Source: Gloeopeniophorella convolvens (lineage: Eukaryota; Basidiomycota; Agaricomycetes; Russulales). Taken from it: DNA of 64,000 nucleotides. Under the pieces are notes generated by a model. It was given only the letters and a program-made list of their open reading frames with translations. It was not told the origin of the DNA and made no database searches. Every line of letters starts with the position of its first letter. Position 1 is the first letter of the stretch. This document shows, one piece after another, positions 1,604 through 26,849 of the stretch. Location: assembly GCA_022496205.1 (NCBI GenBank), contig WTXD01000055.1, forward strand, positions 62,001-126,000. Direction: 5' to 3'. Made by a program: the position numbers and the translations under genes.

Positions 1604-3221
1604 ATGCCTGACGACACGCAGAACGCTGATACAGCGAGACAACTGTAAGTGAGACATTCGACAAAACATCACCTACAGGCCTTGACTGCTCATGGCATCT
1701 GCTCCAAAGGCATATCAATTATATCCTTAATATCTTCCCGCTCGGTAAGTCCCCATGTCTTCGACCTACCAAGAGAGCCCAGACCCAACAGTCGACCAAA
1801 GTCATACTGTACTACGATTTTGCCATCACACTCTCGAAGGAGGTAGAGTTCTTCTGGCCCCCAAAGCGGCGCCTTGGATACGTGTCCTTCTTTTTCCTCC
1901 TCAATCGCTACCTTTTGGTAATCGGAACTATACCTTCCGGACTTTCATTCGTCATAAACGGGGGGAAAACCGTACGTATGAATTCTAATTCGAAACTAAG
2001 CCGTAGAGCTGATGCCTGTCCTTACTTCTACAGTAGTGTGTTTATACATCCCGCCATGGTATTTACACTGACCGAGACCTTAGCTGCCAACTGATATCAG
2101 TCTACGAAGAATTTCATGAAGGAATCACTATAGGTGTTGTCGGAAGTATGGACGACATTTTCGTCTTCCACGTTTGTCACCTAATATCATCATTCACCAC
2201 AGTCCTCTGCATCATACGCGTCTACGCCCTGTGTGACCGCAGCCGGCGTGTGCTCACGTTTTTTATCCTGCTATACGTGGCCGCGTTTGCGGTGTCTGTC
2301 GTACGTGCACTACGCCATCTATACCAACACCAGCATCCGAGTTGACCTATTGCCTGCAGTATGGTATTGTAGCTCCGAATGATGAACTCGTCCTTTCGGG
2401 GCTGGAGGGTATCGTCCCCGGATGCCCTCCAAGGATCCTCGTGCGTGAAGGGTACGTACCTATATGCCCACCATCGTTCCTTCTAATACTTTCATCTCTT
2501 TAGACATAAGCGTAAGACCGTGCAACCCAGTCAGGAACGAGCGACTTAAGGCGATGCCATGTCATATAGGATTCATGATCTCGTGGATCTCTGTGCTCCT
2601 GTTCGATAGCGCTATATTCGGTTTTACCGTACTCAACACAATCCTTATGGGTAAGGGTGCACGTTTGCACCGACTTCTATTTCGCGACGGTGAGTCCGAC
2701 GCTACTGCACCCAGGGCGACTTCTGAACTGCATGCTTCAGGGGCTTTATATTTCGCGTTCGTGCTTGGTGGCGCACCTAGCCCCGCTCAACCCTGATCCT
2801 TATATGCAGCGGTGTGGCTAGTGTAAACCTGGCGAACATATTGACGATGCAGGTGAGATGACACATCCTTGACGTAGCCCGATATCCGCACTTGACGCGG
2901 CTGCGCTCCCTAGTTTGCGCCTGTAAGCTCTAGCTCTCGTCACATAAACGCCGCCTAACCCGTGGCTGGCAGTTGCTTCTTCAACTCGCCTTAACAAAAT
3001 CTGCGAACGTGTCAGTTAACGAAGTCGAATCACACCCGCCTTCTGAATTCTGTGCTGATAGTCATGGTAGGGTATCGGCAGTCCTCATATCAAGGTCAAT
3101 GTTTCGCTTGCGTGAGGGCGATCGCGGACTTTCCGCCCGCGTCTCGGGCATAGGATCCAACCTGCCTGTCTGTCTCAACGCGCTCGAAGCTGGGGACGTG
3201 AGCTTCATCCGAAGAGACTAA
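1604..3221 (+). CDS. DUF6533 membrane protein, copy A (14 exons)
   Basis: Multi-pass membrane protein of the basidiomycete DUF6533 family; function unknown. Exons: 1604-1644, 1710-1744, 1802-1971, 2034-2035, 2084-2145, 2203-2300, 2360-2451, 2504-2511, 2570-2689, 2741-2756, 2810-2852, 2914-2922, 2973-3010, 3071-3221. They sum to 885 nt, giving 294 residues with no internal stop. Signature pieces are ILYYDFAITLSKEVEFFWPP and FLLNRYL (exon 3), LCIIRVYAL (exon 6), ISWISVLLFDSAIF (exon 9) and NLANILTM (exon 11). Exon 4 is 2 nt, exon 8 is 8 nt and exon 12 is 9 nt (FAP). The ATG at 1604 was chosen because its exon ends in phase with the 35-nt exon 2 found in every copy. Read in single frames it looks like a pseudogene; with these introns it is intact. 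It is the most diverged plus-strand copy: Tyr replaces the usual Trp at the start of exon 7. Confidence 0.8.
2034..2035 (+). other. 2-nt micro-exon of DUF6533 copy A
   Basis: The dinucleotide TA lies between an acceptor (ctacag) and a donor (gtgtgt). Joined to the C that opens exon 5 it makes TAC (Tyr) before TGC CAA (Cys-Gln). Without these two bases exon 3 (phase 0) and exon 5 (needs two bases) do not join in frame. The same arrangement occurs in the other five copies. Confidence 0.75.
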
Positions 3222-3643
3222 GAGTAGGCTGCCTTCCGAGAGGTGCGGTTGCTTCCACGTCAATTTCGGCCGAAATTAACTCGGAACGACTCCATGGGGT
3301 AGGCTGCGGTGGAGATCCCGAACCCTCCTAATACCTGCGGAGCACGAGTCGTACTCCAGTCCCTGGTACTGGTGTACGTACGCCTAAGTAGATATTGAGA
3401 TTCGGTACGGTGATTTCACAAAAAGTACGGATATGGTGCGCTTGCTGCGTCCAGGGTGTTCTCGCAGATAGATTTACTAGGCACACGGACAATGTACACT
3501 GGTCACAGTCGGAACGATGTTTGATCAGATGGATAGGAATTTGGTTCGTGGCGGGTCAAGACGCCCCGATCAATCAATCAATGGTGCAACACGACGACAT
3601 CACGATACAGTGTTGTGAGGGACACCGGAATGGAGCTCAGCCT

Positions 3644-5537
3644 TCAAGCTGCGATCCGCATACTGGTGTCAGGATACCACGAGCGGTACGTTGGGCGCTC
3701 GCTCCCATGCTTCCTGCGCCTGTTGCAGAAAGTCCAAATAGTGTCTTCCCTGCTAAACTGTGAGAGGCCGCTGCGGGCGGGATGTGTCGTGGACTCGAGG
3801 AGGCAATGCTGGCCGTCCTGTATCCGGTTCGTTGCTACGTGAAGTGTCCCAGTTCGATGTCTGATGCGATTGTGGGTATTGTGTTTCAGCCAAGATGCAG
3901 TCAAAGATAGGCGCTCACCTTCGGGATTACTGCTGCGACTCGTGTCGGTAGTGCCATCGCTGTTGATCAGGGCAGGTGGCTCGTAAAATGCCATCCCCGT
4001 TCTCGTTCTCTCCGTAGGTGGGTCCGTGCTAGCGTGTTCCTCCCGTAGGTTCAACATGACGCGGGCGACCATGATGGTGGCGAGGCTGCCAGAAAATTAG
4101 CTCAGATATAGGTCCGGGATATAAGTTGAGGACGAACACGCTCGTCAAAGTCAGTGTTGAGTTCCGTTGTAATGGCTGGGAGAGAACATCATCTTGGATG
4201 AGGAAGCTGCCAGAAGGCTACGTTGAAAGAAAGCTTACAGGCGCGAACTGTAACCATATCAGTCATCATCGAGTTTGATACTGATAGAAGGTGCGTACGC
4301 GGAGTATGAAAACGTTCGCCACATTGACAAGGAATATGATTCTATTGAAGTCGCCCGGTGTCAGCGTCCTGAAGGCTGGAATTGTTGGATGGTCGTACGT
4401 AAAGTACATTGCGCCTTAAGATATAATCACCGATTAGAATAGCCCGATGTTTCAAAAGTTCGATGCTCACCGTCGCGGACGAGTACATTCAACAGCCTTA
4501 CCCTTCGACCAGCGATGAGCGCCTTGTACGCGGTCAGAGAAAATATCGCGCTGTCGAACACGGACACGCAAGCCCATGTTATTGAGAGCCCTGCCGACGT
4601 CATTTTCGACTAGATGAGTGCATCAAGGAGAACTCACTGGTTCCTCTAAACGAGTCGTCAGAATGGGTAAGATCAGATGTCACATAAGAGGGCTCACGCA
4701 TCCACTCCAACCCATTGATTGCACCCTGGGAACGTCGATATAACTTGGATGATGTCGGTCCCCTCGCCTCTGGAGATGGTCCACTATACGTCATAAGGAC
4801 AGGTGCCTCGTTGGGAAGCAGAAGAGGGTCCTTACGCCGACTATGCCCAGATTGACTGCAGACAAAACAATGAGAAACCACAGCACCCGCCGACTTCGCC
4901 CATACATGGCATAGACCCGCACAATGCAAAGGACTTCGTGAATCAGCGTCGGTTGAGGACGAATGAATGAGACGACACGCACTCCCAATGCAGACCTGTT
5001 GGATGGCATAGAGAATTTCATGAAACACGAATTCCCATTGGCAGCTTCAAAGTATGAATTATACTCTCGCATCTTCGAGCAGATAGATTTAACTTACTAC
5101 TGTAAAGTCATATTCGCGGTGGGGGCGGTTGTCAGGCCCTGCAACGTGGATATGTAGAAATTTGACTCACGTCAAATGTCGGACTTGTGAAATAAGCTTT
5201 CGCGACAATTAAATTGCCAAAGAAGGCGACGTATCGATTCAGAAGGAACACGGTAGAGACAAATCCAAGCTTGTGTTTTGGAGGCCAGAAGAATTCAACT
5301 TCCCGCGAAAACGTGACGGCGTAGTCGTAATAAAGTATAACTTTGCATTGCAGAAGTTGGATGGTTAGTAGCCTCTAATCAGACCCGCGACAAGGACGTA
5401 CCAAGAGGACACAAGTTGAGGATATAGTTTTTGTACCTGAGTTACGAGGTCGATGAAGGCTTCGCTATCATACAGATTATCGACACTCACAGTTGAAACC
5501 CGGATGAGGCACCGAGGATTGGTACTGGACTCGCCAT
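3644..5537 (-). CDS. DUF6533 membrane protein, copy B
   Basis: Same family and exon plan as copy A, on the minus strand. The start is the ATG at 5537 (MASPVPILGASSGFQL), followed by the 35-nt exon 2 (YKNYILNLCPL), an exon with VILYYDYAVTFSREVEFFWP, the 2-nt exon at 5098-5099 (TA), YCQWEFVFHEIL, LCIVRVYAMYGRSRRVL, FPGCNQWVGVDA, the 8-nt exon at 4638-4645, ITWACVSVFDSAIF and the 9-nt exon at 4239-4247 (FAP). The last exon codes for VARVMLNLREEH and a long hydrophilic tail ending at 3644. A donor inside the tail (CCCGAAG/gtgagc) would give a shorter alternative end, DIELGHFT. An upstream in-frame ATG in another frame was rejected because only the chosen one keeps phase into exon 2. Function unknown. 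Confidence 0.75.
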
Positions 5538-6540
5538 GTACCGATGAAGGGGAAAAGGTAAGGGGCCCGCCCGGCAAGACAAGTTAAGAGACGGGAAACT
5601 GGGTGCTTCTTAATAGGGAGGAAAGATAAAGATGGCTACCCATGTACCCCAGCGCTGCTCGTATCTCGAGCTAATGATAGCTTTGAGCTATGAGGGTGGC
5701 TCGGCCCATGCGGGTACTTAATCATGAGTCCAGTCGACTGGATGGCATCGAGCCTTATGAGGCGTGATCCGGCCAACGTTCGAGGCTACGTATGTCAGTG
5801 GCGGATTCATTCAGGTCTTCTGTCAGACGGTCCTGCACGGGGACCCTCAACTCGGAAGTACGGGTGCATTAACTCCCGGGTGGGAAATGGACTGGCCGCC
5901 GGAGAGGTCGAAGGCGCTGCGCTCATCATGGTGGTTGCCTGTCGAGTCGCACCGGCGCTGCCAACTGATGGACCTCATTGACTCGGAACAGCTTGAGTAA
6001 AGGTCCTGCCGGCTGTGTTGTTTCGACCAAGTCTGCACCAAAAGGCACTGTTCAATGGAGCGCTCTCACCGCAGTGGAAGTACTCGTGTTCGATGGATAA
6101 AGTTAAGGTTCAAGCTGAAGCGCTGAAGAATCGAAGTGTGAAAGCTCCCGCCGAGCGCTCCACGTTCCAATTGCGTGTACCGGGTATGACGGCCCGCCCG
6201 AGCTTGTATCTGCTTGTGCCGCGGCAAATGCCGGAGACGGTTCGGTCGACTCCTCGCTCGCCGCGTCTCGGTCCTCGGACCGCGCGGTCACTGCTAGCAC
6301 CGTGCTGGTGACCGTGGGGCTTTACTGTCCTAAGGCTGGCATAGGAACGCAAGCCTCCTTCGGGGAATTATATGCATGAAATGAATTCCCTGTTTCCTAT
6401 TCTCCTTTTGAACTGTTACGTCGTTAAGTGACCAATTGTGACAGCTGATACTGTGAGTAGTACCTTTGCACTGCGTCGGACAGGACTAAGCCTTATATCT
6501 CGAAACAGTATTGCTATTCTGAGGTTCCTTCAACGCGACC
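5538..6540. other. Intergenic region
   Basis: This lies between the divergent starts of DUF6533 copy B and F-box gene 1, so both promoters should be here. Open frames of 60-98 codons exist but carry no motif and no paralogue. A short stretch around 6093-6150 (core aaagttaaggttcaagct) recurs near 10207-10265. Confidence 0.4.
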
Positions 6541-7857
6541 ATGTCATCTCAGGGAGAATCTCACAAGCCTGAGCCTGTCGCGAGGCCGTGCGGGTTTCCA
6601 CCCGAGATCTGGCTTCGTATCTTCGAGCTAGCCACCGATACACCAAACCTCTATTGTCGAGACATTCGCGACCCATTCGACGGAAGGGCTGGTGAAACGG
6701 GAGGTGCCATCTCGTTCTATCGTCGCGAAGAAAGGAGCACCATCCGCGCAGCGCTTGTCACGAAGCGACATCTCGTGCGTGTTTGTCGACAGTGGTGCAA
6801 CCTCGCGACTCCTCTGCTCTACCGCGGGCTCTACATAGGGCGCGTACGGAGGCTCATATCCCTCGGAAATACGTTACAAGAATCACAAACAGGGGGTGAG
6901 GGCTCGATTCCACTCGGGTCCCACGTTCTTCGCCTCGACATAGCTTTCGGGAGCCCTTCGGAAGAAGGTGATCTGCAGATCACCATCACAGACGTTGAAG
7001 ATCACCTGTGTCGAATCATATCGTGCCTCTCACGTTTAGAGATATTGGCCGTCAGCGCATCATGGCGCAGTATATCGAGGGGTCGGCCGCCGGTCTGGAT
7101 GCCTACAAGAGTGGCGGCTTGCCTCGGATCGACGTGCGGTACATCCCTACGTCGTCTACAATGGACAAGGAACTCCGGACTCCTGTTTAAGCCTGGGGAT
7201 CTTCACGACCTTCTCCGTCACATCCCCAACTTACGGTCTGTCACTGGGACTGAAATATCATACTTCCCCACCAATCCCATACAACTCCCAAACGCCGATT
7301 ATATCGGGTTCTTAATCCAAATTGCATCAATCCCGGCTCCCGCACCGTCTCCTTTCCCCAATATACGTCATATGCTATTGAAAACTGCATTTCTGTCGTC
7401 TCTCATCCCGTCTGTGACCTCTCTTCTCGGTCTCACATCCCATCTCAAGACGGTATATCTGACTTCGCGGGGCGCGGAAGCCCTCCTACAGTCTATCCGG
7501 GATGCACAGATCCCGCATTTGGTCCTGCACCTGAACAAGTGGACATCGTTCAGGGGAAGGATGCGGATCCCTGCGTGCGTTACCCACCTCGGTGTGGCTG
7601 TTGACCAGCTCCAGGCCAAGGATGAAGATTATGGCCACTTCTTCGATTGGCTGGATATGGCCGCTGAGCACGCCTCTGCGCTGCGGTTCGTGCGACTCCT
7701 GAATCCACGCGGCGCGCTAGACCTCGCCAAACACGTCAATCGCCTTAACAGGGCCCTTGCGTGGCTAGGAGAGCGAAACATCCGCCTTGAGGACGTGCGA
7801 GGACTCGCTATAAGACCTGTATCCCGACGACGCCTATCGCCACAGCTTCGCAGTTAG
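6541..7857 (+). CDS. F-box protein 1
   Basis: Intronless 438-residue protein. Residues about 18-34 read GFPPEIWLRIFELATD, the first part of a fungal F-box, continuing through VCRQWCNLATPLLYRGLYIG (about 82-101). F-box proteins act as substrate adaptors of SCF (Skp1-cullin) ubiquitin ligases; the C-terminal part, with irregular Leu-rich segments such as LRHIPNLRSVTG and RFVRLLNP, would bind the target. The second F-box gene at 11714-12985 is a clear paralogue with matching order of motifs (LVRVCRQW / LVLVCKRW; VTHLGVA; VRLLNP.GA.DL.KHV). Codon use is less GC-rich than in the paralogue. Its 3' end faces the 3' end of DUF6533 copy C, 218 bp away. Target unknown. Confidence 0.85.
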   Translation: MSSQGESHKPEPVARPCGFPPEIWLRIFELATDTPNLYCRDIRDPFDGRAGETGGAISFYRREERSTIRAALVTKRHLVRVCRQWCNLATPLLYRGLYIGRVRRLISLGNTLQESQTGGEGSIPLGSHVLRLDIAFGSPSEEGDLQITITDVEDHLCRIISCLSRLEILAVSASWRSISRGRPPVWMPTRVAACLGSTCGTSLRRLQWTRNSGLLFKPGDLHDLLRHIPNLRSVTGTEISYFPTNPIQLPNADYIGFLIQIASIPAPAPSPFPNIRHMLLKTAFLSSLIPSVTSLLGLTSHLKTVYLTSRGAEALLQSIRDAQIPHLVLHLNKWTSFRGRMRIPACVTHLGVAVDQLQAKDEDYGHFFDWLDMAAEHASALRFVRLLNPRGALDLAKHVNRLNRALAWLGERNIRLEDVRGLAIRPVSRRRLSPQLRS

Positions 7858-8074
7858 TTGGACCCGTATCCGCGTTTGAACACCATATGTATAAATCGAT
7901 GACTACAAGTTCTTACAATGTATTGCATGTGTTAGTACATGAACTCCATGGTATATGCGTCCTATAAATTATCCTATTGTCCTTCTGGAGCCGGCCTTCG
8001 TCATGCGGGGATTTCCAGCCCCACTTTCCTAATGAGAAGCGGCGGGAGATCTACTCTCACCATGGTACTACGGC

Positions 8075-9751
8075 TCAGCACATATCGTATGTCGCATTGG
8101 ATGGACCGAGACGGATATCACCCAAGCCGGTACTTGAAACGAAAGCCACATCCAACGCTTGAACCACAGTTGGGGTGGTCATTTCCTGGGCGACGGTCCA
8201 TATGCGATGATGTTCCGCACGTAGATTGATCATGATACGGGAGATCATGACCGCGGCCAGCCTATATGCACGTCAGATTGGTAACGACACAAGATTGAAC
8301 CGTGAGAACTGACAGATTTGTGAGGCTCGGAGACGAATTCCGGAGCAGGGGCTGTGTTGAAGGGCGTCGAATAAGTTCAAAAACATAGGTAACGTGATCA
8401 AATCGTTTACAGGAGCAAACTATGTTGCCTGCGTCAGAGTTGTACCATGATGGAGTGAAAGAAACGGGGACTGACGCGAAGCACCATGACATTTACGATG
8501 TTCACGAGAGCGATGAGCCTGTGTCAAGCTCAGATTAACAAAACGAAGCAGAGAGAAAAAGGGTACGTACGTGAAAAACACGGTACCTGACGTGTTGTCA
8601 GCCTCTTCAACAGTCGAGGTCTAGTTACGTACCATCGCGCATTAAAACATCTAGAAGCCGCACTCCGCCGCGGCCGAACGTTAGTGATTTGTAAAGCGTC
8701 ATAAAGAATATGATAGCGTCGAACGCTGAGAGGCTGCCCCATGTTATCGCTAAGCCTAAGAGACGGACGTCGTGTAAGCAGCTTGGTTATCTCGCCAAGA
8801 AAAGAACACACCGCGTCCGCTGGAGATAGAGGATCATGAGTACGGTGAATGTGCGTCCGAAAGATGTACATACGCATCCTGTCCTACCCATTGGTTGCAA
8901 CCAGGAATTATTGAGGTAACTTGAAGGATACCGGCACCCATCCCAGTGACGGTAGACCACTACAGATCATTGTTTGTGACTGGTTCGACCCCGGGGGTCA
9001 ACGTACGTACCATAGCAATGCTCAGGCCAGCCAGCGATAGAATCACCAGGGCACACAATATACGTCGACTGCACAGATACATTGCGTACACGCGCGCAAC
9101 GCAGAGTACTTTCATCATTCGAGAGTCAGTCAGTCGTGAGAGTATTCTGGGCGAATACTCGAGTACTCACAACCCACGCAGGTCTCTTGAGAAAAGAACA
9201 GAAGTTCGTGGTACAAAAACTCGCCCTTGCAGCTTCGATACAAAATGAATGACTATTGTTCACTTTTCAGTTCGCAGAAACCAAACTTACTACTATAACA
9301 TCAAAAACACGGAGGTTGGTGACACCGTCACGTTAGCTGTGGATCCATGCGACTCAAAGGCGTAGGGTACGTACGGATGGGCTTGGATAGGTGAACAGTT
9401 CCCTCACTATGGCGAGATTCCCGACAAGGGCAATGTACCGATTGAGGAGAAAAACGATGGAGACGAATCCGAGCTTGTTCCTTGGAGGCCAGAAAAATTC
9501 GACCTCCTCGGGGAGTGTGAGGAAGTAGTCGTAGATTATCACGGCTGCAGCAATGGATAACGATCCACCGTTCAAATCAGCGCCGTGATGTACCCAGGCG
9601 GCAATAATGCCAGCTTACCGAGTGGAATCAAAGCAAGCACGTGCTTGGCATAGCTAGACATGTTTTGTGAGGAAGAAACTGAGAGGCTTTAAGCAACTCA
9701 CAGCTGGCTAATGAATGCCGGATCCGATAGTGTCTGCACCTGGCTGGACAT
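8075..9751 (-). CDS. DUF6533 membrane protein, copy C
   Basis: Minus-strand family member with the full 14-exon plan. Start at 9751 (MSSQVQTLSDPAFISQL), 35-nt exon 2 (YAKHVLALIPL), exon 3 with VIIYDYFLTLPEEVEFFWPP and F.LNRYIAL, 2-nt exon at 9291-9292 (TA), YCKGEFLYHELLF, LCVARVYAMYLCSRRIL, IIPGCNQWVGQDA, 8-nt exon at 8812-8819 (cggacgcg), ITWGSLSAFDAIIFF, 16-nt exon (GTVFF), LIALVNIVNVMVLR, 9-nt exon at 8411-8419 (FAP) and LAAVMISRIMINLRAEH, with a tail stopping at 8075. All junctions keep frame. Copy C has Lys where others have Gln after the conserved Tyr/Phe-Cys. Role unknown; the hydrophobic exons imply several membrane helices. Confidence 0.75.
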
Positions 9752-11340: not shown

Positions 11341-11713
11341 GAACGAGCAGATCTGGTCCAGGACTGGGTCCTGCCCAATCGCCTAGCCACAGTGCTCGGG
11401 GTCGTCATCAAGGACCTCAGGTCTCAATCTTAACTCAAAGGATTATAACTTCGTTGCCAACAGGTGCGGAAAAGGCGAAACGAATCGGTGGCCACAGGCT
11501 GGTGCACCTCTGACCGTGATCGATGTATGCGGGAAACGAGTGACGATATGAATCAGCGAGAATGGGCCACGTGCCAGATTGACGCGGCCTAGCAGGAGGC
11601 AAGAGGGCCGCGTCAGCTCCGACGTCCTTCACTTTGAGACTCCCACCACAATATTCCCAACAGCCCAGGATCATAACTGCTGAGCCACCCCAATCTGTGA
11701 TCCATGTAGAAAC

Positions 11714-13263: not shown

Positions 13264-14778
13264 TTACTCGAAGTTCAGGACCACACGACCGACAACTTTG
13301 CCCTGTTCCATCCCTTCATAAACACTGCGGAAAGATATCGATCAGCGACTCGAGACACTGATGGACTGTGGGAAATACATACTCGGACAGAGCTGAGAGA
13401 GGCTTGAGCTCGTAGTGGCACTTGATACGGCCCATTGCTGCGATGTCCAGCGCCTCGCGCGCATCTTGCCGGTTGCTGAGGGCCGCATGAGCGAACACAA
13501 TTTCGATGGTGCATGCGAATCACTCACCCGACGTAGGAACCGTAGATGCTGATGCTCTTCACGACTGTCCAGAAGATGGGTGCACCGATTTGTGCCTTTG
13601 CGGGGAGGCCGACGACCATGAGCGAACCGCCAGGCCTGAGATAGTCGATCGCCTGCTCATATGCAGAGCTCTAAACGTCGGGAAGAGTGTTAGCGCGTGG
13701 TGTCTATAAATAATCGCGCAGTGTGGGCTTACGCTGGCAGCAGACACGAGTGCGGCGTGCGGGCCGTCGCCGCCGGTGGCGTCCTTGATGTCCTGGACCA
13801 GGTCTTTCGTCTCGCGGAAGTCCACCCATTTCTCCGCACCGAGTTTGAGGCAGAGTGCCTTCTTTTCCGGTCCGGTGTCTGAGAAGCTGGGATTAGAGGG
13901 GGTGAAGAAGCAAGAAGTTGCATGACATACCTACTGCCACCACCCGAAGACCGAAAGCATGAGCAGCATATTGAACGGCTGAAGAGATGTGTCGTTGAGC
14001 GCCAGCATCTACTTGTATCTACGCAGGCAGCGTACCGAGATGTCCCAGTCCTCCACCGGCACCGGGAAGGACGACCCAGTCGCCTGGCTTGGTGTTGCTG
14101 TATTTCAATGCACGATATACAGTGACGCCCTGCACGTGACCGTCAGCACGAACATGAATGCAAACACTATGGTACGTACTGCGCAGAGGAAAGAAGCAGC
14201 CTCGGCGCTATCGAGCTTTTCGGGGATGGGCGTAACATGAGAGACATAAGAGACCTGCTCGCATCGATTACTAGACTGCGGAGCGAGACCCGAAGCAAAG
14301 CTACGCACCACGTATTGAGAAAAGGTTCCATCAACGGTGTATCCACTGAGCTTCGCCTTCGCGCAACCTGCAAGTGACCTGCACGTGAGGATATGACGCG
14401 CATGTGAACATATGGTTGCGTACTCTGCTCCAAGCCTTTTCGGCATTGCTCGCACTCGAGACAGGAGTCGGCAAGCCACTTGACTCCAACGCGGTCGCCG
14501 ATCTTGACTGGCGAGCTGACAGTGTGTGCACCGATGGCGACGATCTCTCCAACGCCTTCGTGGCCACCGATAAGCGGGCGCTTGGTCGGGATTGGCCAAT
14601 CGCCCTTGCGGGCGTGGAGGTCCGTGTGGCATACGCCGGTGAAGGCCATCTTGATGAGGCACTCGCCGGGTGCGAGCTCATCTGGCTGCTTGACGGGGTG
14701 GTCGTCCTTGACGTGGATCGGCTGGTCGGGTGCTTCGACGACGGCAGCCTTCTGGACCCTTGGGATGTTTTGAGACAT
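13264..14778 (-). CDS. Zinc-dependent alcohol dehydrogenase (ADH1-like)
   Basis: Medium-chain NAD(P)-dependent alcohol dehydrogenase, which interconverts alcohols and aldehydes, probably in the cytosol. Eight exons give about 345 residues. Exon 1 (from MSQNIPRVQKAAVV) has the catalytic-zinc Cys and the relay motif GVCHTDLHARKGDWP, the zinc His in GGHEGVG and the structural-zinc cysteines CLECEQC; the fourth Cys follows the first intron (SCAKAKLSG). Later exons read HVTPIPEKLDSAEAASFLCA, GDWVVLPGAGGGLGHL (Rossmann fold glycines), GLRVVAVDTGPEKK, LRPGGSLMVVGLPA and the end VYEGMEQGKVVGRVVLNFE. All eight junctions keep frame. Length and motif order match fungal ADH1-type tetrameric enzymes; no signal peptide or mitochondrial presequence is seen. 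Substrate cannot be told from sequence. Confidence 0.92.
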
Positions 14779-14844
14779 TGCGATTGCTTGTGGGGTAAGA
14801 TAGGGGAGTAGCTGTTCGCTATGGATAGGAGCAAAACGGCTCTT

Positions 14845-14854
14845 GCATTTATAC
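14845..14854 (-). promoter_or_regulatory. TATA-like box of the alcohol dehydrogenase gene
   Basis: On the minus strand the sequence gtataaatgc lies about 70 nt upstream of the ATG at 14778, a usual place for a fungal TATA box. Confidence 0.45.
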
Positions 14855-17083
14855 TTGCGACGATATGGAGGCGCGTCCGTATGGTACTCCGACGGGCCGC
14901 GAACCTGCCTGGATTGCGAGTCCGCGTTGCTCGACCGGGTCCCGCGAGCCCGCAGCACCTCCCGTTCCGACGCCACAGGGGAGGACATGCGTCACATGAC
15001 CCTGCTGGCAGGGTCGCGTCGTGCCCAGAACCGCAATCGGCGCGTCTCGTCCCAGCTCAGAGGCCCACTTCCAGGCCGTAGAACGACGTCCTCGACCCCT
15101 CATGCCTACGTGATTGCTGATAGCAGTTTGTGCACAGCAGTAATCGGTCTGAAAATGATGTCGGAGAAGGGGATGGGACGAGGGATAATCGATAATCAAA
15201 AGGTAATTTGATCAGGTCAAGTCTTCGCAGCATGACCACGGGACCCTGGCAACTCGCCAGAAGTTGGAGAGGTGTTGGGGGATAAAACGAAATAGAGGTC
15301 GGGGTCCAGAATTGGGTCTGGCCCTATGACTGGACGGCCAATGAGAAGAGAGCTGGTCATCGAATGGTAGCATACCTCGTTGTCTAGTCGCGCCCGTTGC
15401 CCGTCATGCATGGCGGATGCAAGCCCGCTCGCTCTACACCGTGCCGCGCTGGAGTGTCGGAGCATACCCATCCTCCGTTGCTGACTTTGCGGAAGACAGT
15501 CGTTCCCTGATGGATAAAGTCGGGACAGCGTGTCCGTCCGGAAAATGCCGGAACCACGCGGAAGCATTGGCTCGGGGAACGTGGTGACGGACCGTGACCG
15601 TGACGCGGACGCAGGTTGCCTTGAACCTGCAGCGCAACGGCCGGCTCAGGGAGGCTGAGAGCTGCAGGACGCGTCCACGAAGCTCGATGCTGCATGGACA
15701 GGCGGTGCTTCCCTACTATCACCCCGTGAACCACGTTCTCCATCTTGACGGTCGACACGAGACCCGCGCGGCAATCTGGAATTACTTCCAAGTTACCCCG
15801 TCTCCCCTTGTATCGTTCGCTGATTCTCCCAATCTCAAAGCTATCTTTCTTCCACCGTGTCAAGTACACTTCGAATACGTCGCTTCGTGTGCCTCCGATG
15901 GATCCGAACACCCTCTGCTCATAAGCCCTCGCTTCTCGAGGGTAACAGCGGCTGTCTTTGTCTCTACATCCAGTAACTCGGCTATGCTACTGACCGACAT
16001 CGTAGCATCTCCCACCCTCTCGCAATCTCCATGTGGGTTCAAGTGCAAAAGTATCTCCGTACGTTGCGCTGGGTTGATGGATGCGCCTGAACTTCTCGGA
16101 GTTTGCGGCGGAGTCTTTGGGACCTTCGTTCCCATCTGCTTTGCAGCCCAAGTTGTGGATCGGACTCAGGCCCTCTATTGGCGTCCAGAAAAGAAGGTGT
16201 GAGCCGGTACATTCTCACCCCTCCTTTTCCATTCACTAAGCCAGGGTTTGCACCCAGTCGGGCCCCAGTCTTATCGTCACCCTACCCGGATTTCGGAGAG
16301 CTTGACTCGGCCACCGACTTAAATAAAGATCGTCTCTTTATCAATCAAATGTTTGGTATTACATCACTTCCCCTCGCTCGCACCTGTGTGTCTGAGGAGC
16401 TATTCTGAGGGCGTCAGTGCTAATTGGGGCGTTCCGGTAAGCGCCTGAGCCGACTATCCGAGAACCCTTGTGTTGATGATTCGTCTCACCCCTCATCGCA
16501 AAATCCTGTTCAAATCTCGTTATGCATGCCTCACAGAAACTCAGCGACGATGAAAATAGCACTTCCCGGAGGCGTCCAGCCGGCTATATTGGCCAGGTGC
16601 ACTAGAGGCTGTAGCTAGCCTCAATTCAAAGCCGACGTCCCCATCCTAGAAGAAGCACCATTCTGAAGAGTACATGGCTAGTGATCACCGTGGCAGGCTT
16701 CTTGCTATATTCACCACTTCGTGCCCAAGGACCTGACACGTGTCCAGCTTCTTTTCCAAACAATTCAACGAAATCTGCTAAAGCAGAAGCCCGAAAGGCG
16801 CTTGTCTAGCGCTGCCTCTCCCGCGCCCACCGTGCAACATGCCCGTGCCTCAATCCGGTTCCTGCATCTCATGGATCGTCGCAGGCCGCCGCCCCTTCTG
16901 ATTGCGCCTTGAGTTGTGCGGCCGTTGTACGGGTTTTCATTTCTGCAAATACGCCGCCTTCTACGTGGAGAAATTCGGGTGCAGAGCCATGGAGGGCCTG
17001 GGTATTTAGACTGCGCATCGTGGTCATGGCGCTGCTTCCCCAAGGACGGCGAAAGCCTGTCGAGACACGACTCTACGCAGGGT

Positions 17084-19040
17084 ATGGCTCTGGCCGATCT
17101 CAAGCTCGGAGCGCACGATGCAGAGCAGCTGTAATTCGCATTTATGCCCCCATCTGTCTCCCTTACTGATATACGCCTGCTTCAGAAACATTAATGCCAT
17201 CCTCACGCTCTTTCCTGTAGGTAAGTTCTTCTATACTCCGTGTTGGCAAGCAGATCGATGAACTGATGCATGATCGCCAGCAATATTATACTACGACTAC
17301 CTTCTTACTATATCCCGTGAGATCTGTTTCGTCTGGCCTCCGGTCAATAAGCTCGGATGGGTTACAACTATATATTTCCTCAATCGCTACCTTTCTATGC
17401 TCGGTCACGCACCAGTCGTGTTCTCTTATTTTATCAAGGGAAATCTTGAGGTACGCCACCTCCGACGTATCTACCATCAGCTCAGAGAATTCATTTCATG
17501 TTTCTCTAGTTGTACGTGGCATATATGTCTCTGCGGAGCCGACAATGGCTGATCAGCCCCAGCTGCCAATTTCTTCACACGTACCACGAGATTCTTGAAT
17601 TCGTGTTGCAAGTGCTTGGCGGCGGTGTGTTCTTCGTACCTCCATCATAGCCCGCGCGTTGTTGATCCAGGGTATGGCTTTCAGTGCTCTGCATTATCCG
17701 CGTACATGCACTTTACGGAAGGAGTCGTCGCGTCCTGATGTTCTTGCTTTCGCTTAGTATAGTCGCGATTATCATCGGATGCGTACGTCCTCCCTGTTCG
17801 CCTCAATGGTGCGCACAAGGGAGCATCTGACCCTGCCTTCGTCCAGTGGGCAATTTTCACCGACCGCAACTCCGACGTAGAATCCATCGAGGTGATATCT
17901 AACATCCCAGGGTGCAATCAATATGTCACGACAGCGGGGTACGTAGGATAACTCAAGCAATCTTCCGGGATATCGGACTGACGGCCCTCTCTAGAGGTCG
18001 ACGTAAGTAGAACCCCTAATTGCACGAGACGATTGTAATGTGTGAGGGTAGATCCTGCACTTGCATGGACAGGCGTGTTGGCGTTTGATTGCGTTGTTTT
18101 CGCCCTCACTTTGTACAAGGCATTCACAATGGGCAGACTTGGAGACGGAGACATACCGTATATCCTTGACGTCTTCGTACGGGATGGTGAGTCGGACTGC
18201 CGCCCTGTCAGCGACACAGGCTCACGCATCATCATAGGGGCGATGTATTTTTCGTGAGTAGACTCATGTCCAGGATCCTCTCTGCAACTCTGACCAAGGA
18301 ATAGTGTGCTTTGCTTTGTGAATCTAGCGAACATCTTAATTCTTCGAGTACGTCAAATTTACGTGTACCTGCTCAATCGCTCATACGTGCCTTTCCTACC
18401 AGTTCGCCCCGGTCCGTCTATCACTCCTAGTCAACGAGAGCTTTCTGGCTGCTCACCTCTCGAACCAAATGCTAGCCGCTCCTTCGGAATTCAGCAGGAA
18501 CACTCACCAACGTGTCTGTTTCTCTCCAATGTTGTTACGTCACCATGCTGACACATCGTCTCCCCAGGCTCTCATCGGTCCTGGTATCCCGTCTCTTGCT
18601 CAACCTCCGCGCGGAGAACGCCACTGCATTGGGTTACTCAAGCGGGGGGGACATGGAGTCGTCTCTCGCGTTCGAGGCGGCTTCTCCCGCCGCGCGCGCT
18701 CCGACATCGACACTTGGCACCACTGCTACGGTAGGCTTTTCGGACGACACTGCGCGGGACAGCATGAAAAACGACGCCAGAGTAGGTAAGCACGCCCAAA
18801 TAATATCGCTCGCCTGAGCTTCAGAATGACGAAAGTGACTATGCGGGGGCATTAATTGACACCCCAGATATCAGTGTGACCGAACACGGGGAAAACGACG
18901 CGAAGCAAGGGATCGCGCGAGTTGGAGAAACGTCGCACCCGTGCTTTGGCGCAGTTGCGGGCTGTAATTCATCCACGGATGGTAAAGATGGACTCACCAG
19001 AGACGGTATAGATGTACACGCTGTAATCTACGAGGTATAA
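17084..19040 (+). CDS. DUF6533 membrane protein, copy D
   Basis: Exons: 17084-17130, 17186-17220, 17281-17450, 17510-17511, 17563-17624, 17685-17782, 17847-17938, 17995-18002, 18052-18186, 18238-18253, 18305-18347, 18403-18411, 18476-18513, 18568-18781, and probably 18825-19040. Start MALADLKLGAHDAEQL. Key pieces: ILYYDYLLTISREI, WPPVNKLGW, LCIIRVHALYGRSRRVL, IPGCNQYVTTAGG, LAWTGVLAFDCVVF, FVNLANILILR, FAP (9-nt exon) and VSRLLLNLRAEN. Lengths of exons 2, 3, 5, 6, 7, 10, 11, 12 and 13 equal those of copy A. The final exon (NDESDYAGALIDTP to HAVIYEV) is supported because the same frame is open in copy E with indels of 9, 9 and 3 nt. Its donor (gtaggt) is weak; if the neighbouring gtaagc is used, translation stops one codon later. 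Function unknown. Confidence 0.78.
17510..17511 (+). other. 2-nt micro-exon of DUF6533 copy D
   Basis: TT sits between ctctag and gtacgt; with the following C it makes TTC (Phe) before Cys-Gln. The duplicated copy E keeps the same bases at 22477-22478. Confidence 0.75.
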
Positions 19041-19571
19041 TACCCCCAGATGCTGATGAGTACTGCTCGGTGAGCTCGTTTATTTGCACACTGGCACACG
19101 ACAATCTGGCTTCCATGAGATCTCAGCGCAGGAGGTGTGCCGGCGTCCTTAGTGGAGAAGTGGGGTGACACTACATAACCCAGAGCGCGCAAGACCAATA
19201 CTTACACTGTACCCCATGGATGCGGAAATTTGCCAAGTAGGGTGATGATATCGACAGCCCTGGCTAGACTGGCGGTTCAAGGGATAATCGATAATCAAAG
19301 GTAATTTGATTAGGTCAAGCCTTCGTAGCATGACCACGGGACCCTGGCAACTCACCAGAAGTCGGAGGTGGTTGGAGAAGAAAACGAAATAGAGGTCGGG
19401 GTCTGGAATTAAGTCTGGCCCTAGTATGCTAGTGGATGGCCAATGAGAAGGGAGCTGGTCACCGAATGGTAGCATACATACCGTCGTCTGGTCGCGCCCG
19501 TTGACCCCGTCGTGTATGGCGGGCGCAAGCCCGCTCGCCCTACGCCGTTCCGCGCTGGAGTCGGAGCATAC

Positions 19572-20401
19572 CTACACGGCCAAGTGCCAGAACCGTCCTG
19601 AGGTTGCTTTTTGCGAAAGTCACCGCGTTTTGGGCGATATTGAGATCTGGGGGGTGATTTACGCTAGCCGAAGGTTGCAGCACGGTGAGATTCAGTTTGA
19701 ATGACGGTACGGCCACAGGTTGAATAAGCGGGTCGAGCACGGGTTCGCATGCCACCGGCGCTGGCACTGGCTCAACGAACCCCGAGGACAGCATGAAAAG
19801 CATCCTCAGGATGGTTTGGGTCGCTTAGACGGAAAAGGAAACGGCCCCTGCCCGGCATCAGCGGCATATCATCGGACTGCCAAAGTGAATTACACATCGT
19901 TGCGGCTGGCCCAAAATTCGTCTGCAAGTCGCGTTGCTCGTCTCTTCAACTTGAACTTGAACTCCAAGTTCCACCCACTCTCGTGTGCCGCCCTTGCTCT
20001 CATGTATTAAGATGATTAGGTTTACTGTATGCTCCACCTGTAGTACTATTGTATAGCATAGTAGTCACTTCTCCTGTACATTTACTTAGTTCCAAGGTAT
20101 TAGTTGTGAATGCAAGGCCCCGTTTTCAACATTCTGATTGTGCGAAAGCCCCCGGTGGTCTCCCCAATGGAAAGTGGGCTGAGACAGGCGACGGATATGA
20201 ATGACTAAGCTCTCGGCTAGCCTCGCGTCCTGATTACAGCCTGCAACGCAACCTCAGGTTGGACTGAGAGCATCCTGAGGATCAACCTCGGCTATCCTGG
20301 CGCATCGTGTGCGAAAATAACCTCGTTTTGTTGCTACAGCCATCCTCTGTCATACGTCTCCCAGGCCAACCTCAGGATGCTCCCATCACTTGGCCGTGTA
20401 G
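19572..20401. mobile_element. Non-autonomous DNA transposon with terminal inverted repeats
   Basis: The 830-bp insertion begins ctacacggccaagtg and ends cacttggccgtgtag, a perfect 15-bp inverted repeat. The match resumes inside as cctgaggttg on the left and caacctcagg on the right. Subterminal copies of cctcagg/cctgagg recur near 19803, 20252, 20275 and 20370. No open frame with transposase motifs is present, so mobility would depend on an enzyme coded elsewhere. A target-site duplication is not obvious: unit 1 reads catacccatcctccg at the empty site. The superfamily cannot be assigned. Confidence 0.75.
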
Positions 20402-22047
20402 CCTCCGTTGCTGACTTTGCGGAAGACAGTCGTTCCGCGTTGGATACGTAAGGTCGGAACAGCGCGTCCGTCCGGAAGATGCCGGGGCCACACGGAAGCA
20501 TTGGCTCGGGAAACGCGGTGACCCGGACGCGGGCTGCCAACAGCGCAACGGGCTGAGGGCTGCATGACTCGGATGCGTCCCCGAACCTCGATGCTGCGTT
20601 GATGGGCAGTACTTCCCAGACATTGCCCTCCGCATGCCCCGTGAACTGCATTGACGGTCGACACGAGACCCGCGCGGCGATCTGGAACTTCCTTACCCCG
20701 TCTTCCATTGTACCGTTCGCTGTCGCTGGTTCTCTTGATATCAAGCCATCTTCCTTCCACCGCACCAAGTGCACCTCGAAAACTCGCTCCGTGTGCCTCC
20801 GATAGATCCGAACGCCTTCTGCTCATAAGCCCTCGCTTCTCGAGGGCAACAACGGGTAACAGTGGCTGTTTTTGCCTCTCTACCCAGTAACCCGGCTACA
20901 TTACTGACCGACATCGTAGCATATCCCACCCCTCGCAATCTCCTCGCGGAATCCAGTGCAAAGGTGTCCCCGTACGTTACGCTGGGTTGACGGGTGTGCC
21001 TGAACTTTTCGGAAGTTCGCGACGGAGCCTTTGGAACCATCGTTCCCATCTACTTCTCAACCCAAGTTGTGGATTGGACTCGGGACCCTCTATTGGCATC
21101 CCGGAAAAGGGGACGTGAGCTGGTGCAATCTTACCCTTCCTTTTCCATTCACTATGCCAGCCGGGTTTGCACCCAGTCGGGCCCCAGCCTTACTATCACC
21201 CTACACGGATTTCGGAGAGCCTGGCTCGGCCACCCACTGGAATAACGATAGCCTCTTTGTCAATCAGATATCCGGTGGCACACCACCTGCCCTCGCTCAC
21301 ACATGTGTCTGGGAGTGCGTCAGCGTTAATTGGCACGTTCCGGTAAGCGTCGGCCCTCTAAGCCGACTATCCGAGAACCCTAGTGCTGATGATTCACCTC
21401 ACCCCTCATCACAAAATCCTATTTAAATCCTGTCATGTATGCCCCACGGAAACCCAGCGACGATGGAAGCAACGCTTCCTGGAGGCGTCCGGCCGGCCAT
21501 ATTGGCCGGATGCGCTAGAGGCTGTAGCTAGCCTCATTAAAGCCGACATCTCCATCCCAGAAGAAGCTCCATCTCTGAAGAGTACAGGACTAGTGATCAC
21601 CGTGGTATGCTTCTTGCTATATTCGCCACAGTTTGCGCCCAAGAACCTAACACATGTCCAGCTTCTTTTCCGAACAATTCAATGAGAATCTGCTAGAGTA
21701 GAAGCCCGAAAGGCGATGTCCCCTTGTCCAGCGCTGCCTCCCCCGCGCCCGCCGTGTAGCATGCCCGTATCTCGCCTTCCGACATACTTTGCTATGCTCT
21801 ATGCTTCCGCGCTTTCCGAGTCCTGCATCTCGCAGATCGTCACAGGCAGCGCCTTCTGATTGCGCTTCGGGTCGTGCGGCTGTTATACGGTTCTCGGATT
21901 TAATTTTGGCATATGCGCCGCCTTCTGCGTGGAGAAATCCGGGTGCAGAACCACGGAGAGCCTGGGTATTTAGGCTACGCCTCAGAGGCATGGTGCTGCT
22001 TTTCCAAGGACGGCGAAAGCCTGTCGAGACACGACCCCACGCAGCCC

Positions 22048-24007
22048 ATGGCCCTGGCGGATCTCAAGCTCGGGGCGCACGACGCAGAGCAGCTGTAATC
22101 CCCTTGTATCTTCCGACTCGTCTCCCTTACTCATACTCGTCTACCGCAGAAACACTAATGCCATCCTCACACTATTTCCCGTAGGTGAGTTCTCTTCCGT
22201 ATTCCATGTTGGCGAACAGATCGATGAGCTGATCCTTGATCGCCAGCAATATTATACTACGATTACCTGCTTACTATATCCCGCGAGATCCGTTTCGTCT
22301 GGCCCCCGGTCAATAAGCTCGGATGGGTTACATCTGTATATTTCCTCAACCGCTATCTTTCTATACTCGGTCACGCCCCGCTACTGTCCTCTTATTTCAT
22401 TAGAGGGAATCTTGAAGTACGCCACCTTCCAGCGCATCTACCATCAGCTCATGGAGCTCATCTCATACTTTTCTAGTTGTACGTGACATACATCTACTCC
22501 TAGGGAGCCGACAAAGGCTGATCAGCCCAAGCTGCCAATTTCTTCATACGTATCATGAGATTCTCGAAGTCGTGTTGCAAGTACTTGGCGGCGGTGTGTT
22601 CTTTCATACCCCTACAGTCCGCGCGTCGCTGATCTGGGGTATGGGTTTCAGTGCTCTGCCTGATTCGCGTGCATGCACTTTACGGAAAGAGCCGTCGCGT
22701 CCTGGTGTCTTTGCTTTCGCTTGGTGTCGTTGCGATCATCATTGGATGCGTATGTCCTCCCTGTTTGTCTTAATGATGCGCACAGCGGAGCATCTGATCG
22801 TACCCTCGTCCAGTGGGCAATTCTCACCGACCGCAACTCCGACGTGGAGTCCATCGAGGTGATATCTAGCATCCCAGGGTGCAATCAATATGTCACGACA
22901 GCAGGGTACGTAGAATAACTCAAGCAATCTTCCGAGTATTGGTCTGACGACCCTCTCTAGAGGTCGACGTAAGTGGAACCCCTAATTGCACGAGACGATT
23001 GTAATGTGTGAGGGCAGATCCTGCACTTGCATGGACAGGCATGTTGGCGTATGATTGCGCTGTTTTCGCTCTTACTTTGTACAAGGCGTTCGCAGTGGGC
23101 AGACTCGGAGACATACCGTATATCCTTGACGTCATTGTACGGGATGGTGAGTCGGACTGCTACTTTCTCAGCCGGACCTAGGCTCACGCCTTACCGTAGG
23201 GGCGATGTATTTCTCGTGAGTGGGTTTATGTCGGGAATCGTCTCTTAGTCTGATCAAAGAATAGTGCGCTTTGCTTTGTGAATCTAGCGAATATCCTGAC
23301 TCTTCGGGTACGCCAATTTCGACTGTCATATCCTACCTAGTACCCAATCGCTCATTCGTGCCTTTCCTACCAGTTCGCCCCGGTCTGTCTATCTGGTCCG
23401 ACGAGATCCTTCCGTTCGCTTACCTCTCGACCCAACTACCAGCCGCTCCTTCGGAATTCAGCAGGAACACTCACCAACGTGTCTGTTTTTCTGCAAAGCT
23501 ATTACGTCACCATGCTGACACATCATCTCCCCAGGCTCTCATCGGTCCTGGTATCCCGTCTCTTGCTCAACCTCCGCGCGGAGAACGCCACCGCAATAGG
23601 CTTCTCAAGCGGAGAAGATATGCAGTCGTCCCTGGCGTGGGAGGCAGCCTTTCCCGTCGCGGGCGCTCCGACGTCGACACTTGGCATCACTGCTACGGTC
23701 CTTTCGAACGACGCTGCGCAAGACAGGATGAAGAACGACGCCAGAGCAGGTAAGCACGCCCAAATAATATCGCTCGCCTGAGCTTCAGAATGACGAAAGT
23801 GGGGATGCAGGGGCATTAATTGAGCTGAATAACATCCCGGATATCCGTGTGACCGAACACGGGGAAAGCGAGGCGGAGCGAGGGATCGGGCGAGCTGGAG
23901 AAACGTCGCACCCCACCGTTGCGGACTGTAGTTCATCCACTTTGGACGATAAAGATGGACTCACTAGAGACGATCTAGATGTACACGCCGTAATCTACGA
24001 GGTATGA
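22048..24007 (+). CDS. DUF6533 membrane protein, copy E
   Basis: Tandem duplicate of copy D with the same exon plan. Start MALADLKLGAHDAEQL at 22048; exon 3 from 22251 (ILYYDYLLTISREIRFVW); 2-nt exon 22477-22478 (TT); CQFLHTYHEILEVVLQVLGG; LCLIRVHALYGKSRRVL; IPGCNQYVTTAG; 8-nt exon 22961-22968 (identical to copy D); LAWTGMLAYDCAVF; 9-nt exon 23374-23382 (FAP); VSRLLLNLRAEN. The acceptor before exon 9 changed from gtag to gcag without losing the AG. The last exon reads NDESGDAGALIE to DVHAVIYEV. The last intron would need a GC donor (gcaggt) to keep that frame; with gtaagc the protein stops at once, as in copy D. Function unknown. Confidence 0.76.
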
Positions 24008-24253
24008 GACCCCCAGATGCTGACGAGTACTGCTCGGTGAGCTCGTTTGTTTTCACACTGGCATCATGCAACCGTGACGATCCGGCTTCCATGGGATCAT
24101 CTGCGTAGTGGCCAGATCCCGGGTGCTCCTCAGTGGAGAAGTGGTGTGGTACTACAATAACCCGGAGCGCGCAAGACCAATACACTGTACCCCATGGACG
24201 CGGAGACTTGCTCCAAGTAGGGCAATGACATCGACGGCCCTGGCTGGACTGAT

Positions 24254-24963
24254 TACGGGCATCTCGGCTGAAAGGACAATCGAGGCTGGCGCTGACTCGG
24301 CGCTCGTCACTAATGTACTAATGACCAAAGCCGATAAGTCCGAAGTACACTGGTGGTGCCATGTGACGTACCTCCGTATCACCCCCACGGGCCACAACTT
24401 GATGCTCTGTTCTTACTTGTAAACGTTGCTCTTTCAAAAAGTATCGCGAGTGCTCTTTCAGTTGCGTTGGCTGGTAGTCCTGGCTTTCACGAGCTATGCA
24501 TATCCATGGGGACGTCATCCGTCCTAGTTGCTCTCACCCAGCCTGTTCGATGTTTCCAGGGCGACTGCGCTTTCGACAGAGGTAAAACGCACCCGCGAAA
24601 CTATGCCATCGCGACGACGATGCTTGGCGACACCTTTGCAGGACACCGCCCCTTCCTCGGACTTGCTTGTAGCCCGCGCCACGTTAATTCCCGGCCTCCC
24701 CATACTGCAATCACCATGTCTCCCCGCACCCCTCGAGTAGTCCACCTGCGCGCCACCACCTGATTCGCTGTTCTTTCTTGGCGCCTTTCGGTCGCACGGT
24801 TTGGATTCTTACGCGTAGCACCGGGCCGTACCGTCACCGATGTGGTTGGATGCTGGTCTACGTTCACGCGTGTGCCTCTTAAAGAGCATACTGTGTCTCC
24901 TCAACCCGGCGACCCTGTTTCCTCAGAAGGGCCTATTCCCTCAATAGCTTTAACAGGCCTACA
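24254..24963. other. Intergenic region
   Basis: This follows the end of the tandem duplication and precedes DUF6533 copy F. Frames of up to 136 codons exist on both strands but have no motif, paralogue or splice support. Confidence 0.35.
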
Positions 24964-26849
24964 ATGTCCCCGGGGGGTGTCATTGCCGCTGGATCGCACG
25001 CTGCAGGACACGTGTAAGCTGACAGCTTCACTTCAGCTAGATTACATGCTAACATCATACTTATAGGCAATCAAACTACATTCTAAATCTGGTTCCAGTA
25101 GGTAAGCTTACCGATTCAAATCTTCAATACATCATTCAAGCAGGCCTTCATTAAACGTAGTGATTCTATACTATGACTTTGTGCTTACTTCATCCTCCGA
25201 AATCCGCTTTTTCTGGCCACCTCACAACAAGCAAGGCTGGGGGACCTTTGCATTTCTCCTAAACCGCTACCTCTCTTTCTTCGGGTACATCCCGATGTTG
25301 ATCTCTTTCTTTGGCCGTGGACATAGTCCCAAGGTGGGCCCTCTTGGTTAGCTTGAAGCTCAGTCTGGCTGAGTTTACGCTCGAATAGTTGTGCGTCTCT
25401 AGAATGTGCGCTGCCCGGCGCCGATGAGGCTCATCAGATCGCAGTTGCCAAGGCCTACATGCATATCACGAAGTCTTCGAAGTCGTCTTACAAATAGCTG
25501 TTGGCGGTAAGCTTCCGACATGTCCGTGTACGTCGCTTTCCGTACCTGACCCAGCCCACTCTCAACCAGTTCTCTGCGCGATGCGCGTGCACGCGTTGTA
25601 CGGCCGGAGTCGTCGGGCTTTGAGCCTTTTGGTCCTCCTCGCCACCGCCTCGGTTGTCGTCGGAGGCGTGCGTCTCCTTGAGGCCTATCGGGTGTACACT
25701 AATGCTCCCCTCGTAGTGGGCCATTCTCGCTGACCGCTACAATACAGTCAAATCGGGTCCCGTGGTATCGGACTTTCCTGGTTGCAACAGGTATACGACA
25801 GCCGCAGGGTATGTTGTTGGGTTCTCTCAAGGAACGACTCGGACTCAACAAGTGCCTCGTTCGTTCACTCTCTAGGGGCCGGCGTAAGTCGCGGTATGGG
25901 GATTGTAGTGAAATGCTAAACGCTCAGAACAGAGACCGCCTTGGCATGGTCGGGCGTGCTCGTATTCGACAGCGCCGTCTTCTTGCTTACTCTCCGAAAA
26001 GCATGTGCGATCGGAAGAGGTGCTCACATCTTGGACGTGATCGTACGTGATGGTGAGTCCCGCCGATGTTTTTGCAAAATCAGACACTGACACGATGGTC
26101 CCACTCAGGAACCGTATACTTCTCGTGAGGGCCATTCGTAAACTTTGGCTTGACGGAGGTCTCACCTCGGATTCAGTGCTTTGTTCGTCGTGAACCTGGC
26201 AAACATACTCACACTCCGGGTGCGTCGGCATTCTTCCTGGTAGTTTGCTTTGTGACGAAGACCTCGTCTAGTTTGCTCCGGTTCGTTCCTGCCTCCGGCA
26301 CCCACCCGCACCGCCGCTAACATTACGGCTCCTGCGTTCAGACTTTCTTGCGTGCTTCCACCACAACCCTTACAAATGTGTTCGTTCAATTGGCGACCTC
26401 CGTCGAAGCGGACGCTGATGCATAGTATATGCAGATTATCGACCACCCTCATGTCGCGTCTCATGTTGATTCTCCGCGCGGAACACGCAGCGTCCGCGGG
26501 TCTGCCGATGTCGATAGAGTCCTCAGGGAGATTTCGAGCGGCATTGCCTGTAGCGCCTTCACCCGTGCTGATAGCCACTCCCCGGTCCGTCAACACCTTT
26601 TTGACAGTCGGCTCAACGGGAACCCAAGCGCGGCGTGAAACTCCTAGTGGGTCTCTTGCACAGCTAACGCGCCTCGATCTGTTGAATCCGTCTCCTTCAC
26701 AGCTTCAACGCTTCAATCCTGACATCGACCACGACCATCCAGAGCACACATCACCTGCTTTCGCAGACGAAAGTAACTTCGTGTTGACGACAACAACACA
26801 ACATTGTGTTACATTCTGTATCATCACCTACTGTAGCCTTTGGTCGTGA
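24964..26849 (+). CDS. DUF6533 membrane protein, copy F
   Basis: Start MSPGGVIAAGSHAAGH at 24964, 35-nt exon 2 (QSNYILNLVPV), exon 3 (ILYYDFVLTSSSEIRFFWPP, FLLNRYLSFFG), 2-nt exon 25389-25390 (TT, giving Phe before CQGLHAYHEVFEVVLQ), LCAMRVHALYGRSRRALSLL, FPGCNRYTTAAG, 8-nt exon 25876-25883 (gggccggc), LAWSGVLVFDSAVFLL, 16-nt exon (GTVYF), NLANILTLR, 9-nt exon 26272-26280 (FAP), TFLRASTTTLTN and LMSRLMLILRAEHAAS. The last exon is long and stops at 26849. Copy F lies just outside the tandem duplication and has diverged from D and E, yet keeps every tiny exon. Function unknown; several hydrophobic segments indicate a multi-pass membrane protein. Confidence 0.78.

Follow-up and report, generated by a model that had tools for sequence, protein, structure and literature searches.

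In plants, microexons of a single nucleotide (nt) have been described in APC11 and VPS55 (Guo and Liu 2015, PMC4674806; Yu et al. 2022, PMC8831610). In basidiomycetes, the shortest exon reported for the P450 genes of Phanerochaete chrysosporium is 6 base pairs (bp) long (PMC1184071), and the microexon genes among the bglA genes of basidiomycete yeasts are reported with minimum exon lengths of 5, 6 and 18 bp (PMC9142197). A microexon of Xlr2 in Trichoderma virens is described as included or omitted depending on the condition (PMC11121469). Here we report a probable exon of two nucleotides in six genes of the DUF6533 family (Pfam PF20151) of putative membrane proteins in the basidiomycete Gloeopeniophorella convolvens. 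These genes, named W1 to W6, lie in a stretch of 64,000 nt referred to as the window (assembly GCA_022496205.1, contig WTXD01000055.1, positions 62,001 to 126,000 of the forward strand; C356:62001-126000 in our numbering). The same family includes SNB1 (snowball) of Coprinopsis cinerea, a protein with seven predicted helices which, according to the title of the paper describing it, is needed for fruiting-body patterning (PMC10949477). Very probably, the element is a constitutive exon conserved in length, whose two short flanking GT-AG introns are removed successively by intron definition.

The 2-nt exon resembles those of plant APC11 and VPS55 in being an ultra-small exon between two introns, probably missed by annotation and apparently long conserved, and in the existence of gene copies that carry the corresponding base or bases inside a larger exon. 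As in APC11, it is needed for the reading frame. The plant microexons, however, consist of one base, occur in one or a few genes per species and are confirmed at the RNA level, whereas the present exon has two bases, belongs to a large fungal family and is deduced from genomic sequence only. With the P450 and bglA genes it shares the arrangement of very short exons between short introns, but the exons cited from those papers do not go down to 2 nt and show no fixed length across a large family. Like that of Xlr2, as described, it is a microexon in a filamentous fungus, but here skipping breaks the frame. As to SNB1, the word "intron" is absent from the main text of the paper on that protein (PMC10949477). 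In the open-licence literature searched, the top-ranked entries included no account of a 2-nt exon, whether from fungi at large or from the DUF6533 family, although a paper with that phrase as its only matching term could be missed. Elements of this kind are known; what appears to be new is the size of 2 nt in a fungus, together with the occurrence throughout a family that is large and divergent. An earlier note on this DNA had placed such an exon near the limit of spliceosome recognition, which is a fair description, although exons of 1 nt have been published in plants.

At all six window sites, the exon upstream of the motif AG-NN-GT ends in phase 0, and the exon downstream of it starts with N-TGC. 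Since this next exon starts in phase 2, two bases are needed to maintain the frame. The first donor is located in phase 0, 69 nt past the start of the NRY codons (72 nt in W6). Joined to the next exon, the two bases give the junction codons TAC, TAC, TAC, TTC, TTC and TTT in W1 to W6, with TGC (Cys) following in each. On either side of the 2-nt exon stands a complete GT-AG intron of normal length; in the six copies the upstream introns have 55-82 nt and the downstream ones 48-58 nt. In W1, W2, W6 and W4 the exon series is 35, 170 (173 in W6), 2, 62 and 98 nt, the first and last exons being placed by hand. All six copies are above the curated PF20151 cut-off; after splicing, W2 scores 46.9 bits and W6 39.2 bits, versus a cut-off of 24.1. 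The six sites are those listed in the earlier note, and they were confirmed at these positions.

In W1 (plus strand), the 170-nt exon containing DUF6533 ends in phase 0 (1802..1971) and is followed by a 62-nt intron with the ends gtacgt and acag (1972..2033), the 2-nt exon TA (2034..2035; TA plus C gives Tyr), a 48-nt intron with the ends gtgtgt and ttag (2036..2083) and the 62-nt exon, which starts C-TGC (Cys; 2084..2145). W2 is on the minus strand, with a 170-nt DUF6533 exon (5171..5340), a first intron of 71 nt (5100..5170), the exon TA (5098..5099; Tyr), a second intron of 53 nt (5045..5097) and a 62-nt exon starting C-TGC (4983..5044). For W3, also on the minus strand, coordinates are given from the start of the PF20151 match to the exon end (9375..9551); intron 1 has 82 nt (9293..9374), the exon is again TA (9291..9292; Tyr), intron 2 has 58 nt (9233..9290), and the 62-nt exon with C-TGC follows (9171..9232). 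The remaining three copies are on the plus strand and carry TT, giving Phe. In W4 the 170-nt DUF6533 exon (17281..17450) is followed by 59 nt of intron (17451..17509), TT (17510..17511), 51 nt of intron (17512..17562) and the 62-nt C-TGC exon (17563..17624). W5, likewise given from the match start (22246..22416), has introns of 60 nt (22417..22476) and 53 nt (22479..22531) on either side of TT (22477..22478), then the 62-nt C-TGC exon (22532..22593). In W6, the DUF6533 exon of 173 nt (25161..25333), an intron of 55 nt (25334..25388), TT (25389..25390) and an intron of 54 nt (25391..25444) precede a 62-nt exon that starts T-TGC (25445..25506).

The survey covered the whole genome (36.7 Mb, 404 contigs), which contains at least 58 PF20151 matches, including W1 to W6. 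We studied 59 copies: the six of the window, 52 other matches and L061, a near-copy of W6. L061 (G000:C189:3100-4700) is located on a short contig and is identical to W6 at 98/98 positions of the intron interiors; it may represent W6 on the other haplotype or result from a recent duplication. The hits on C274 and C367, and those on C92 and C371, have equal PF20151 scores and look like similar pairs. Relatives were also sought in viral and genome contig collections, where none was confirmed. The next exon was placed in 50 of the 59 copies, 19 of them by a peptide profile of 20 residues, seeded with eight copies and blind to splice sites, and 31 by hand (30 by hand-picked strings and L061 likewise). 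The nine copies left out are L017, L018, L052, L045, L046, L048, L060, L053 and L059. A clustering threshold of 75% identity, with 40% or more of the length covered, divides the 50 copies into 34 clusters. Splice sites were scored with our own general weights, which are untrained.

When splice consensus was ignored, AG-N2-GT was found in 46/50 copies and 30/34 clusters, and in 45 of the 50 copies it is accompanied by a phase-0 donor upstream. Other spacings occurred in a mean of 6.4 clusters and peaked at spacing 6 (21 clusters, 31/50 copies); we read this peak as largely the GT at +5/+6 of the same donor. Under a strict filter, with the site located 40-75 nt before the next exon, spacing 2 was retained in 39/50 copies and 26/34 clusters. 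The remaining spacings between 0 and 30 nt were then limited to 0-3 copies or clusters each (mean 0.43 clusters). All 19 copies placed by the profile carry AG-NN-GT. L047, described below, is included in both the 46 and the 39 although its AG is exonic; without it, two introns are present in 45 copies when no filter is applied and in 38 under the strict one. Six copies (L015, L024, L040, L050, L057 and L058) have two candidate sites, one of which was chosen by hand; this choice affects the tallies of residues, pairs and intron lengths, but not the spacing counts. In L040, only the non-chosen candidate passes the strict filter.

Among the 45 carriers of two introns, 30 are of the NRY type, with the first donor at 69-78 nt. 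The 15 others all have a phase-0 donor with an open upstream reading 46-57 nt before the AG, scoring at least 2 in 12/15. A GT is located exactly 62 nt into the next exon in 29/30 NRY-type copies; in L020 the acceptor is 3 bases upstream of the placed exon start. The carriers are very divergent, with a median identity of 20% and a minimum of 5% over the 20 residues after the site. The spacing from the Cys to a later Arg is nevertheless 25 residues in 36 of the 38 measurable intron-bearing copies, the other two having 29 residues (12/50 copies were not measurable). The Cys itself is found in 49/50 copies, partly by construction, many exon starts having been picked as N-TG[CT]. The length of 2 nt is kept in 45/50 copies, to which L047 adds two bases fused to an exon.

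The letters of the exon are variable. In the 46 copies the two bases are TA (14), TT (13), CT (8), TC (4), CA (2), AG (2) and AC, GT and GG (1 each), and the residue formed is Tyr (14), Phe (11), Leu (10), Ser (6) or, once each, His, Thr, Val, Gln and Gly, the last in L047. Thus, it is the length that is kept and not the letters. The earlier proposal that the residue is always aromatic is valid for the six window copies but does not extend to the family. Close relatives were also compared: in 13 close pairs the site is aligned in register in 13/13, and the donor positions +3 to +6 are identical in 50/52 cells versus 1049/1251 in intron interiors. Some copies enter two or three of these pairs, and W6 and L061 are identical in the interior.

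Copies lacking one or both introns were also found. Contig C79 carries L047, L049 and L056 in a span of about 10 kb. In L049, 24 codons counted from NRY are followed by an intron, the bases TC, a second intron and A-TGC. In L047, the 24 aligned codons are followed by GG in the same exon, then by a single intron and A-TGC, and no first intron with a good donor was found. In this sister gene, which lacks the first intron, the site thus contributes exactly two coding bases. In L045, L046 and L048 no intron interrupts the site; these copies read Asp-Cys and display the 25-residue Cys-to-Arg spacing (by eye). L060 is also contiguously coding through the site, into Ala-Cys. The occurrence of the exon in paralogues beyond the six of the window, together with the exonic bases of L047, strongly supports the conserved 2-nt exon put forward in the earlier note.

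GT-AG models were enumerated for each window copy, and the 2-nt model was the top two-intron model in 6/6. In the same enumeration on NRY-type copies it ranked first in 29/31, second in L010, and was absent in L039. In dinucleotide shuffles of the sequence between the flanking exons (5,000 per copy), a valid AG-NN-GT of any quality appeared in 7-29%, and one matching the quality of the observed site in 0.08, 0, 0.2, 0.14, 0.02 and 0.28% for the six window copies. Skipping the two bases shifts the frame, with a stop within 20 codons in 17/46 copies. Genomic sequence thus shows the position and phase of the two bases, their recurrence across the family and the restriction of this recurrence to length 2 at strict consensus.

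Several points count against a conserved, constitutive 2-nt exon. W4 and W5 are close duplicates, so the six window copies are not fully independent; tandem copies and possible haplotigs are not independent either, and cluster counts were used for this reason. The starts of the third exon were hand-placed in 31/50 copies. The conservation covers paralogues of one genome only, and the identity of AG and GT in the close pairs is no evidence, since only copies with AG-NN-GT were entered. The site is missing in 4/50 copies (L039, L030, L035 and L056). The donor that follows the 2-nt exon does not outscore the one that precedes it (14 higher, 11 lower, n=30, p = 0.21); a stronger downstream donor as compensation was rejected on this basis, and the donor scores give no hint on the order of intron removal. 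Finally, one-intron GT-AG models are formally open in five window copies (9 in W1, 4 in W3, 8 in W4, 9 in W5 and 8 in W6).

These open models lend some substance to the alternative that the flanking exons are joined in frame by one longer intron using a different donor or acceptor, AG-NN-GT then being a chance motif or decoy. In W1 the TAG inside AGTAG is usable, with read-through of the 48-nt second intron, and in W4 the whole 51-nt second intron can stay open; in the best one-intron models of W1, W3 and W4, intron 2 becomes coding in part or as a whole. The earlier statement that only two extra bases can join the exons in frame is therefore too strong. However, no open one-intron model was obtained in W2, L031 or L032, and elsewhere these models differ between copies; they were rejected because none is common to the copies. 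A decoy is also at odds with the recurrence of AG-N2-GT across the family, and retention of the whole second intron leads to a frame shift or a stop in 44/46 copies. We consider a single longer intron highly unlikely.

Another possibility is that no ordinary exon exists and that the two bases are part of an intron that is nested or ratcheting. In a recursive splice site, GT directly follows AG and nothing is retained; in a stwintron, an internal intron splits a splice element of an external one. The earlier note had suggested a recursive-like, two-step removal. Its stepwise part is likely: an acceptor and a donor two bases apart are probably not occupied together. The recursive part does not fit the introns, which are complete and of ordinary length, nor the AG, which does not abut the GT. 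Spacing 0 is seen in 7/50 copies when splice consensus is ignored, but in 0/50 at strict consensus, and a zero-length recursive site was rejected on this count; moreover, a frame shift would result if no base were retained. Unlike the parts of a stwintron, both flanking introns come with a donor and an acceptor of their own. A branch-like YTNAN motif precedes the acceptor in 44/46 upstream and 46/46 downstream introns, as counted by a permissive scan with no shuffle control. A recursive site or stwintron is even less likely than a single longer intron. Altogether, the interpretation given in the earlier note is partly supported.

The least likely reading is that the gene copies are decaying and have simply lost the frame at the site. 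Some copies do look degenerate by eye (L017, L018 and L030). L030 seems to have AT in place of AG, apparently by mutation, and L017 carries AG-TC-GT with no proper acceptor before the next exon; L018 has the same PF20151 score and printed peptide as L017 and was taken as its twin, not separately read. These three may perhaps be pseudogenes, or users of unusual sites, with a damaged splice site by the 2-nt exon. Across divergent copies, however, the flanking exons hold their frame, lengths and Cys-to-Arg spacing, and in close pairs the donor after the site is steadier than the intron interiors. Other exceptions were of a different nature. L039 (G000:C124:116139-117770) has no 2-nt site and an Asp where the Cys is expected; a 5-nt exon (2+3; AACAT) would fit there, the acceptor being weak. 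L052 stops at a contig end with AG-TA-GT present.

For the constitutive 2-nt exon that we favor, intron length would be the relevant parameter. Splicing by intron definition is described as dependent on intron length and not on exon length, and Prp40 was found necessary for very small exons (PMC8624252). The downstream intron measures 46-69 nt in the 46 copies tallied, and the upstream intron 49-82 nt in NRY-type copies (donor at 69-78 nt) except L010 and L011, in which it reaches 179 and 182 nt and may hold a further exon. The spliceosome would pair the sites across each short intron, so that exon length would hardly matter. With the acceptor and the donor two bases apart, binding of the acceptor machinery and of U1 would likely be mutually exclusive, and one intron would leave first, the other second. 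The exon would be retained since losing or skipping it puts the reading out of frame immediately ahead of the conserved Cys, and its letters could drift freely, the residue before the Cys probably being unconstrained.

Given the extracellular N-terminus predicted for SNB1 (PMC10949477), the site would be located in an outer loop before helix 3. W2 and W6 share a second Cys in a later FPGCN stretch. An outer disulfide is found in many seven-helix receptors, and the Cys after the 2-nt exon could form one with that of FPGCN.

The window also contains other open reading frames. One on the minus strand (14167-14988), with an alcohol dehydrogenase GroES-like domain, is located between DUF6533 copies. 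Another on the minus strand (27124-28158) encodes 344 amino acids with a CBM21 starch-binding module, and one on the plus strand (60700-62244) encodes 514 amino acids and starts with the end of a DUF6535 domain.

A 2-nt exon is near the smallest possible and is easily missed by gene-finding programs. As very small exons are often missed in annotation, as reported for plants (PMC8831610), DUF6533 gene models, perhaps including those of snb1 relatives, may contain errors directly behind the annotated domain. How the spliceosome finds exons at all can be probed with exons of one or two bases. Here, 45 copies in about 30 sequence clusters, with the same length and different letters, provide natural replicates, and L047 provides a copy without one of the introns; the role of intron definition, the order of splicing and the minimum size of an exon thus become directly testable. 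On a broader scale, it is conceivable, if doubtful, that a constitutive 2-nt exon is ancestral and lineage-wide in the receptor-like DUF6533 family of mushroom-forming fungi, that its tightly spaced acceptor and donor impose a strict order of intron removal, and that, through the frame shift on skipping, it serves dozens of membrane-protein genes as a common quality or dosage gate.

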